Shown here: one piece after another, positions 10,774 through 15,174 of the stretch
Position numbering within the stretch: position 1 is the stretch's first letter
Layout: the number at the start of each line of letters is the position of its first letter
Assembly (NCBI RefSeq): GCF_003967175.1
Contig: NZ_AP018553.1
Location: 62,001 to 126,000, forward strand
DNA: 64,000 nt
From: Sulfodiicoccus acidiphilus
Lineage (GTDB): Archaea; Thermoproteota; Thermoprotei_A; Sulfolobales; Sulfolobaceae
Direction: 5' to 3'
The notes under the pieces: model-generated
The model's input: the letters and a program-made list of their open reading frames with translations, nothing else
Told to the model about the DNA's origin: nothing
The model's database searches: none
Translations under genes and position numbers: made by a program

Positions 10774-12576
10774 TCATTCTCCGCTTAACTCCATGGCATA
10801 ATACTCGTTACGCTCCTTCTGCAGCCTGTCCAAATAGCTCATTGGTTTATTGGCTCGAGGTCTACCAGTTTCGGCATCCCTCCTGAAGGTTATCCCGAAC
10901 TCCCTGAGGAACTTGTTAAGGCCGTGTCTGAGAGGAACAGGTTCCTCCACATTACCACTAACTCCAGGCTTTCCAGAGAACACTATGATCCTGTCGGCCA
11001 CGTAGTCGTGTATGGCAAGGTCGTGTTCTACTATTAAGGTGGCAGATCGCCTCTCTCGAGTTACCCTCTTTATAGCTCTGGCCATGACGTAACGCTCCTC
11101 AACGTCGATGTAGGCTGAAGGTTCGTCGAATACGTAGACGTCGGCCTCCTTAGCTAGAGTTTTAGCGATCATTAGCTTCTGGAGTTCTCCTCCACTAAGT
11201 GAGGAGACTGAGGAGTCTAGTAGCTTATGAAGGCCGAACCTCCTCACTACCTCAACATAAAACCATGACGAGGAGGAAAGCGAATCCTTGCTGGCATCCT
11301 CCATAACCTCCCTAACAGTTCTTTCAGTAAAAGGTGATATGACCTGTGGCTTATATGCCAGCCTGCTTTTTTCAGGTTCCACGATCCCTGCGTCGGCCTT
11401 AAGTTCGCCCACCAAGATCTTCACGAACGTCGTCTTTCCTATACCGTTGGGCCCTACTATCCCAACCACCTCACCTTCTCGCACTTCTCCTCGTGGTGCC
11501 GATAGGGAGAAGCCGAGAAACGATTTCTGCACACCTGACCACGAGATCTTTATAGATGTACCGGTAACCCCCTCCATCTCGGCGAGGTCCTTCATATAGA
11601 ACCTTATCTCATAATCTCTCATCTTCACATTTTCACTTGGAAGGAAGCCCTTTAACATGTGGTTTATACCAGCTCTTACAGAGTAGGACTTGGAAACCCT
11701 ACCATAAATCGACGGCTCTCCATACATCACGTTGACAAGGTCTGCCACATAGTCTAAGACTATCAGGTCGTGGTCAACCATAAGGACGTACTTATCCCCT
11801 AAGAGCTGTCTAAGTACTCGAGAGAGGTTAAGGCGTTCGTTTATGTCTAAGTAAGAGGAGGGTTCGTCGAATACGTAGACGTCGGCCTCCCTTAGGAGAG
11901 CTGCCCCCACCAAAAGCTTCTGCAGCTCTCCACCGCTCAAGGTCGAACTCTCCTTCTCCCACATCGACTCCATTCTCAATAAAGTCCTGATCTCGTCCAA
12001 CTTTCCCCTCTCGTCAATTCTTCGGAGTAGATCCGATACCTTCCCCTTTAGTAACCTCCCTACCACCTCAACATACTGGACTTTATGGACAACTCTCAGT
12101 TCCTTATTATAGAGTTCCTTGAAGTAAGAGTGTATTTCCTTCCCCCGAAACCGCTGAAGCACCATGTCCTGTGTAGGCATGACTTCTGGATCCCCGAAGT
12201 TGGGAACGAGCTCCCCGGACAGAATCTTCAATATGGTGGTCTTGCCGGTGCCGTTCTTACCTATAATTGCAGTGATCGCTCCGCGCTTTGGGGTCGGTAA
12301 TCCGAATAACTTAAAGCCATTGATGCCATACCTGTGGATCGCTTCTCCTTCTAGAGCATCGGGCAAGTTCACAATAGATATGGCGTCAAAGGGACACTTC
12401 TTCACACAAATTCCACATCCTATGCAGGTCTCCTCGTAAATAACAGGTTTGCCCTTCATGGCCTCTACTAGCTCTATCGCTTTAGTGCCGGACCTATTGA
12501 CTGGACAGAAGTTAACACATTCGACCCTACACTTGTCCGGCTTACAGTCGGCGTAATTTATGACAGCTACCCTCAA
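10774..12576 (-). CDS. ABCE1/Rli1 ribosome-recycling ATPase
   Basis: ABCE1 splits terminated ribosomes with Pelota. The protein has an N-terminal two-[4Fe-4S] domain (CKPDKCRVECVNFCPVNRSG and CIGCGICVKKCPF) and two ABC ATPase cassettes. Each cassette has a Walker A (GKNGTGKTT and GPNGIGKTT), an LSGGELQK signature and a Walker B followed by D-loop (VFDEPSSYLD and VFDEPSAYID). The open frame starts at a TTG at 12609, but an internal TTG at 12574-12576 follows GGTG at 7-nt spacing and yields exactly RVAVINYADCKPDK at the start, 600 residues, as in Sulfolobus relatives. I prefer this shorter form. An acidic microgene precedes it on the same strand. Confidence 0.95.
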   Translation of the reverse strand: MRVAVINYADCKPDKCRVECVNFCPVNRSGTKAIELVEAMKGKPVIYEETCIGCGICVKKCPFDAISIVNLPDALEGEAIHRYGINGFKLFGLPTPKRGAITAIIGKNGTGKTTILKILSGELVPNFGDPEVMPTQDMVLQRFRGKEIHSYFKELYNKELRVVHKVQYVEVVGRLLKGKVSDLLRRIDERGKLDEIRTLLRMESMWEKESSTLSGGELQKLLVGAALLREADVYVFDEPSSYLDINERLNLSRVLRQLLGDKYVLMVDHDLIVLDYVADLVNVMYGEPSIYGRVSKSYSVRAGINHMLKGFLPSENVKMRDYEIRFYMKDLAEMEGVTGTSIKISWSGVQKSFLGFSLSAPRGEVREGEVVGIVGPNGIGKTTFVKILVGELKADAGIVEPEKSRLAYKPQVISPFTERTVREVMEDASKDSLSSSSWFYVEVVRRFGLHKLLDSSVSSLSGGELQKLMIAKTLAKEADVYVFDEPSAYIDVEERYVMARAIKRVTRERRSATLIVEHDLAIHDYVADRIIVFSGKPGVSGNVEEPVPLRHGLNKFLREFGITFRRDAETGRPRANKPMSYLDRLQKERNEYYAMELSGE

Positions 12577-12627
12577 AACTAGGCACCGTGCACAATCTTT
12601 CCTACTCAAAAACTAAAGGTTTAACCT

Positions 12628-12720
12628 TCACTCTTCCTCCCAATCTTCCTCTTCCCAATCTTCCTCTTCTTCCTCCCAATCTTCCTCTTCCCAATCTTCC
12701 TCTTCCCAATCTTCCTCCAT
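12628..12720 (-). CDS. 30-residue acidic Asp-Trp repeat microprotein
   Basis: An ATG-initiated frame of 30 codons, with five DWEEE-type repeats and only Met, Glu, Asp and Trp, ends in TGA 18-50 nt before ABCE1. It reads MEEDWEEEDWEEEDW and continues the same way. The leader has a GGTG ribosome-binding site 8 nt before ATG, lying inside a perfect palindrome (12724-12736), and an AT-rich TATA-like stretch (TCATAAAAATA) about 30-40 nt upstream. It is either a true microprotein or a translated leader of the ABCE1 mRNA. The repetition is exact at codon level in places, so replication slippage has shaped it. I know of no described homologue. Confidence 0.55.
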   Translation of the reverse strand: MEEDWEEEDWEEEDWEEEEEDWEEEDWEEE

Positions 12721-12723
12721 TTA

Positions 12724-12736
12724 CAGCACCGTGCTG
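12724..12736 (-). promoter_or_regulatory. Palindrome enclosing the microgene ribosome-binding site
   Basis: The complement reads CAGCAC-G-GTGCTG, a perfect 6-bp inverted repeat. Its right half contains the GGTG Shine-Dalgarno core that would serve the ATG at 12720. A hairpin here would hide the ribosome-binding site, or the palindrome could be a protein-binding site at about the transcription start. Confidence 0.35.
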
Positions 12737-12923
12737 AAAGCGATATAGGTATTTTTATGATTTTCCTTTATCGGATTTGGCGTTTAGGGAATAATGAATG
12801 GGCTGAAGAATAGATGACGCAAGTAGAACCCGGACTACCCGCACACCTTTGACGGTATGAATGAAAGACTGAATACCTCACTAATTCTTCCTTGTAATTG
12901 CAGACGTTAGCTTAGAACTTAAC

Positions 12924-14868: not shown

Positions 14869-15174
14869 TTGAAGTTCTGTCCCAAATGTGGAGGAGCTAT
14901 GGTTCCTGTAAAGAGAGATGGAAAGGAGCTACTAAGATGTACTAAGTGCAAGTACGAGGAGGAAATGAAGAAGGAATCGAAGAAGGAGTATGTAGTAACA
15001 GAGACTAAGAACAAGAGCGAGAAAGTGCTAACTACTTCCCTAGTAAGTGATAAGTCCGGGAGGAAGAGGGAGGAAGAGGAACTTGAGCAGGAAAGGGAAG
15101 AGTACTATAGAGAGATAGGGTTAGATTTATTGAGAGATGAGTTGGAAGGAAACGAGGAAAACGATGAGGACTGA
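14869..15174 (+). CDS. Single zinc-ribbon Rpb9/TFS-like protein
   Basis: The 101-residue protein begins with the Rpb9/TFS N-terminal zinc ribbon ([12 protein letters not shown], then [11 protein letters not shown]) but lacks the C-terminal ribbon with the catalytic Asp-Glu pair of the transcript-cleavage factor TFS. Instead it ends in a highly charged coiled-coil-like region and an acidic tail (EENDED). It may bind RNA polymerase without stimulating cleavage, or be an unrelated zinc-ribbon adaptor. The start is TTG, preceded by GGTGA at 14859-14863. A TATA box, TTTATATT, lies at about 14822-14829. The methyltransferase gene follows after 8 nt. Confidence 0.75.

Follow-up and report, generated by a model that had tools for sequence, protein, structure and literature searches.

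The 30-codon frame directly upstream of the gene for the ribosome-recycling ATPase ABCE1 in the window (the whole 64,000-nucleotide stretch of Sulfodiicoccus acidiphilus DNA analyzed here) is a conserved protein-coding gene and no chance repeat. It encodes an acidic, Trp-rich microprotein, is under strong purifying selection, and is preserved over most of Thermoproteota. Its linkage to ABCE1 across the phylum points to the microprotein as a putative ABCE1 partner. With moderate confidence, we propose that it is a trans-acting acidic-aromatic docking protein for ABCE1 and ribosome recycling, with a mode of action resembling that of the acidic-Trp segment in eIF3j/Hcr1.

The microprotein gene runs from ATG to TGA on the minus strand (12720..12628), and its 30-aa product, MEEDWEEEDWEEEDWEEEEEDWEEEDWEEE, is composed of four residue types alone (M, E, D, and W) and includes five DW(E/D)n units. 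A GGTG Shine-Dalgarno-like site lies 6 nt upstream of the ATG (12727..12730, minus strand), and a TATA-like AT-rich stretch, ATAAAAAT, is a candidate promoter (12751..12758, minus strand). Comparable AT-rich elements are visible upstream of the gene in relatives. The sequence confirms the description in the earlier note of a frame of these four residues on the ABCE1 strand, just ahead of that gene and equipped with an ATG, a GGTG site, and a TATA-like stretch. An intergenic gap of 51 nt (12577..12627, minus strand) separates the microprotein stop from the ABCE1 start and holds another GGTG site (12584..12587, minus strand). ABCE1 (also RLI; 10774..12576, minus strand) encodes 600 aa from a TTG at 12576 and matches NCBIfam NF009945 with 843 bits. 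The upstream context CACGGTGC is common to both start codons (12725-12732 and 12582-12589), a short duplication. A TFS/RPB9-type zinc-ribbon gene is located at 14869-15174, approximately 2 kb from the microprotein gene.

No frame in the window except the microprotein has 21 D, E, or W among 24 residues together with at least three W, and such a frame was absent from all 100 versions of the window simulated with an order-2 Markov model. The array is also a tandem repeat at the DNA level (15/36 bp), so composition alone is weak evidence for a gene, and a non-coding low-complexity repeat that is open by accident would look similar in this respect. The real test is protein conservation in diverged genomes, which the microprotein passes. 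Eighteen close pairs of the family differ at 92 synonymous and 17 nonsynonymous positions (162 synonymous and 1278 nonsynonymous sites; pooled pN/pS 0.023), and 98 of the 109 nucleotide differences are in third codon positions. Selection keeps the microprotein sequence rather than the DNA. Comparison of synonymous substitution between relatives, which the earlier note had proposed, thus identifies the frame as coding. This codon-level result refutes the accidental repeat, as do like frames with differing repeat units in dozens of families, and we assign that reading practically no probability.

Of 31 Sulfolobaceae genomes, 29 yielded an ABCE1 gene, and these 29 are the basis for counts of ABCE1-adjacent genes. 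A small acidic-aromatic frame precedes ABCE1 on its strand in 23 of them, and its repeat units vary (MEEDWEEIEEEDWEEIEEEDWEEDEW, MEEEWEEDLEEEEWEDELDEDWEEEEW, MLEEEDWEEEDFEEEDWEEEDF..., (M)VFEEDWEEEFDEFEEEEDWEEEEFEEEEW); a search of relatives at this position, also suggested beforehand, recovers the gene with varied repeats. All six exceptions belong to one seven-genome genus (probably Saccharolobus). Each of the six has one intact copy at another site, such as L212 (MIFEEEEDLWEEEEDWDEEEEDLWEEEEEEW), and the seventh genome of the genus (G012) has both copies. A decayed remnant ((V)EEDLLND or EDLLED) remains beside ABCE1 in five of the six exceptions (L013, L014, L016, L020, and L021; the other copies are in L212-L217), and its counterpart in G012 is EEEDLLEEEEW. 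Locus L023 has neither gene nor remnant beside ABCE1, and its genome holds a differently placed copy (L215). Loss of the ABCE1-adjacent copy with retention of a distant one argues that the microprotein acts in trans and not as a leader.

A direct protein search with the window 30-mer found no match except itself; searches of this kind probably fail on low-complexity sequence. As a workaround, we scanned ABCE1 loci and used the DNA pattern TGGGANGANN{0,30}GANTGGGANGAN, which was chosen because [D/E] is encoded by GAN and Trp by TGG. The pattern matches 254 of 398 Thermoproteota genomes and 139 of 197 genomes in the order-level set (far fewer in a backward-read control), and these prevalence figures are lower bounds because the pattern misses WW variants. 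Among 20 ABCE1-upstream regions read individually, mostly from genomes without a pattern match, seven carry a WW-variant gene. Carriers beside ABCE1 include Bathyarchaeota A05DMB-2 and PFL2, Thermoprotei archaea B15_G16 and B15_G2, and Thermogladius. The gene is present and distant from ABCE1 in Calditenuaceae and a Nitrososphaeria archaeon, and no microprotein gene was found in the Nitrosopumilaceae-type genomes examined. Genome G219 has an ordinary copy (L232) and two extra, longer paralogues that are near-alike (L229 and L231), in which the N-terminal part has no Pfam match.

Euryarchaeota are essentially without the microprotein gene. The pattern occurs in 42 of 197 genomes of one Euryarchaeal phylum, mostly out of frame or non-acidic; of 22 matches hand-picked from among those listed, seven (from about six genomes) are purely acidic-aromatic in frame. 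In a phylum-wide Asgard sample, the pattern occurs in 101 of 195 genomes. Some of these loci encode microproteins (L273 from Thorarchaeota, ...SFEPDDWDDDEEDWDDDDWEDDDDY; L296, L299, L301, L303, L308, and L309), others encode tails on longer proteins, including PCNA, and a few are chance matches. Flanks of up to 4 kb at six named Asgard ABCE1 loci contain no acidic-Trp frame. Asgard genomes hold D-rich relatives that are not adjacent to ABCE1.

Amino acid composition is strongly biased in the family. Among 125 distinct frames, Glu accounts for 62% of residues, Trp 12.5%, Asp 6%, and Gly 1%, and basic residues are almost absent. The last residue is Trp in 88 frames and Phe in 14 (102 of 125, 82%), although these counts are not independent because the frames are related. 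A C-terminal aromatic residue is evidently favored, as 88 frames end in Trp when only one residue in eight is Trp. The window genus is an exception, with frames ending WEEE-stop and lacking a terminal Trp. Neither the window protein nor L212 has a Pfam or NCBIfam match, and a PDB sequence search with the microprotein found none. The open full-text literature searched, which includes few subscription journals and preprints, yielded no mention of the gene. The gene has been missed owing to its short length (20-50 codons) and low complexity, and standard homology filters hide genes of this kind.

Acidic-Trp tails are also found on other proteins. One follows a LysW-type zinc ribbon (L226, 2827-3105) and ends EEEEEW, and others follow B-box/HIT-like zinc fingers (L227, 3023-3274; L249, 2984-3238; weak matches). 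Asgard PCNA can carry such a tail at the C-terminus, for example EEDWDEEDEEFEDWDDDDE (L298, identified as PCNA by Pfam; L302 and L304, by sequence likeness). Because of these tails, the acidic-Trp motif is not ABCE1-specific. TFS/RPB9-type zinc-ribbon genes are located near the microprotein gene in Asgard genomes (L299, L303, and L301, where the neighbor gene has no Pfam match) and at L230; in Thermoprotei archaeon B15_G16, such a gene lies between the microprotein gene and ABCE1.

Linkage to ABCE1 was assessed outside Sulfolobaceae in 141 gene/ABCE1 pairs with known coordinates from 28 families. The gene is on the same strand and less than 500 nt upstream of ABCE1 in 84 pairs, representing 16 families besides Sulfolobaceae. 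It is within 5 kb of ABCE1 in 108 pairs (77%; 17 of 28 families), compared to about 1% of cases or less expected for a random locus. In family f10, the gene is divergent and about 1.4 kb upstream of ABCE1, or 3.6-3.9 kb downstream. Families f5, f6, f23, f27, f33, and others have the gene unlinked to ABCE1. In total, 11 of the 28 families show no linkage, a count to be read with the caution that placement on another contig can conceal linkage because assemblies are often fragmented. In several genomes of unlinked family f6 (L157, L160, L162, L163, and L164), the gene adjoins a MiaB-like methylthiotransferase, as read from the sequence.

Gene linkage suggests that the microprotein acts on ribosome recycling. 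It would be produced together with ABCE1 as a probably unfolded chain of repeated acidic-Trp docking motifs that in most cases ends in a free Trp or Phe. Through Trp side chains in their acidic setting, the microprotein would most likely dock on ABCE1 itself or on the recycling complex of the small subunit; as a multivalent ligand, the chain would insert Trp residues into hydrophobic pockets with basic rims. Such docking could tune ribosome splitting or ABCE1 release. If the microprotein is a conserved partner, it would be a new component of archaeal ribosome recycling. The helpers of ABCE1 known to us (eIF3j and Lto1-Yae1) are eukaryotic. A 2020 study of the archaeal ABCE1-30S complex treated eIF3j solely as a eukaryotic helper (PMC7196836).

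eIF3j/Hcr1 is similar to the microprotein in that its N-terminal acidic segment (NTA) uses an acid-flanked Trp as a docking determinant, and it is a partner of ABCE1/Rli1 in eukaryotic recycling, the role proposed here for the microprotein. Trp52 of eIF3j with flanking Asp binds the eIF3b-RRM (approximately 20 μM), where the Trp enters a hydrophobic pocket with Lys at its rim; W52A or charge reversal abolishes the interaction (PMC2824034). Hcr1 binds Rli1/ABCE1 via the ABC2 domain, hcr1 deletion is suppressed by RLI1 overexpression, and Box-NTA mutations of Hcr1 do not affect read-through (PMC3836723). Because of this last result, the NTA is not the demonstrated ABCE1 contact even in yeast; therefore, working like eIF3j is a proposal, and membership in the eIF3j family fails. 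eIF3j is far larger (265 residues in yeast Hcr1) and has one key NTA Trp with a known pocket on the eIF3b-RRM, whereas the entire microprotein chain consists of acidic-Trp repeats. All members have an acidic segment with a conserved Trp, the likeness to eIF3j is compositional only, and Pfam and NCBIfam give no eIF3j domain match in the window protein or L212. As a conserved ABCE1 partner, the microprotein would bear on the origin of acidic-Trp motifs in eukaryotic factors. We consider it unlikely that an ancient, undescribed microprotein of Thermoproteota, D-rich in Asgard and consisting solely of acidic-Trp docking motifs, is a dedicated ABCE1 recycling cofactor from which the acidic-Trp part of eIF3j took its function and perhaps its evolutionary origin.

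AA-boxes lie in folded C-terminal domains of large factors. The earlier note likened the microprotein to the AA-boxes of eukaryotic initiation factors; the likeness to eIF5 and eIF2B-epsilon extends only to acidic and aromatic composition, there is no Pfam domain match, and the C-terminal HEAT/W2 domain of AA-box proteins has no match in the 30-aa microprotein. LysW/ArgW amino-group carrier proteins are likewise small and acidic, and LysW ends in the acidic-Trp motif EDWGE. However, the window protein has neither a zinc ribbon nor a terminal EDWGE, most members lack both, and the only member with a LysW-type zinc ribbon (L226) does not end in EDWGE.

The strongest rival to a docking protein for ABCE1 is a general acidic-Trp binder, which would serve basic proteins (ribosomal proteins, RNA polymerase, or chromatin factors) as a multivalent chaperone or would compete for them, with the position beside ABCE1 reflecting ancestral gene order more than dedicated function. 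It owes this standing to the families with unlinked genes and to the same module forming tails on Asgard PCNA and on B-box/HIT-like and LysW-like zinc domains; the TFS/RPB9-type zinc ribbons nearby in several genomes are also consistent with it. However, ABCE1 linkage recurs in 18 families including Sulfolobaceae while other neighbors change, which exceeds the usual inherited order, and the C-terminal aromatic residue is kept by selection. We regard this general role as possible but rather unlikely. The C-terminal residue and the Fe-S nature of ABCE1, which holds two [4Fe-4S] clusters, suggest another role, in which terminal Trp or Phe recruits an archaeal assembly factor (e.g., DUF59/Cia2-like) to load ABCE1 clusters, as Lto1-Yae1 does for yeast Rli1. 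Lto1 relies on a conserved C-terminal Trp, in some organisms Phe (PMC4523923), and the eukaryotic C-terminal signal is [LIM]-[DES]-[WF] (PMC10623007). Like Lto1 and this tripeptide, the microprotein has Trp or Phe after an acidic residue and a link to ABCE1, and the MiaB-like neighbor in one family would fit such a role. The 102 frames ending [E/D]-[W/F] match the last two signal positions only; at position -3, the frames have E, D, or N in place of L, I, or M, and window genus members end WEEE. The deca-GX3 motif of Lto1 is absent at the low Gly content of the family, and internal Trp repeats running throughout the chain would be superfluous. In addition, a survey of the signal found that few prokaryotic Fe-S proteins end in Trp or Phe and that the archaeal homologues examined lack the signal (PMC10623007). 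An Fe-S adaptor is thus improbable.

The earlier note also raised a translated leader controlling ABCE1, for example as a Trp or ribosome-stalling sensor. A peptide rich in Trp and Glu, encoded on the same strand at short spacing in most lineages, would suit this role. However, a leader keeps a fixed position upstream of the gene it controls, and the microprotein gene is divergent from ABCE1, downstream, kilobases away, or on other contigs in many lineages (f10, f6, f22, f23, and others). Six of the seven probable Saccharolobus genomes keep only the distant copy, the adjacent one being lost or decayed, and conservation is at the amino acid level, terminal Trp included. Genomic position largely refutes cis control by the microprotein gene, which we consider very improbable. 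The trans-acting docking protein remains our preferred reading.

Few translation proteins of archaea and eukaryotes are as conserved as ABCE1, and the nearest solved structures to the ABCE1 encoded in the window are those of archaeal and eukaryotic ABCE1. No fusion of the acidic-Trp motif to ABCE1 was found. At ABCE1 residue 12, which comes after the first Fe-S cysteine, almost all of the proteins examined from Thermoproteia, Bathyarchaeota, and Asgard have K or R; Q, N, or H predominates in Euryarchaeota, Nitrososphaeria, and DPANN. We rejected this basic residue as a tracker of the microprotein gene; its pattern is phylogenetic, because the residue also occurs in those Asgard and Bathyarchaeota that lack a nearby gene. 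With Asgard and gene-less Bathyarchaeota in the comparison, no ABCE1 residue co-varies with gene presence. The source genome is a single 2.35-Mb contig, and outside the window it contains a second Fer4_RLI domain match (38 bits; G000:C1:144936-145016, L070) in a 165-aa frame.
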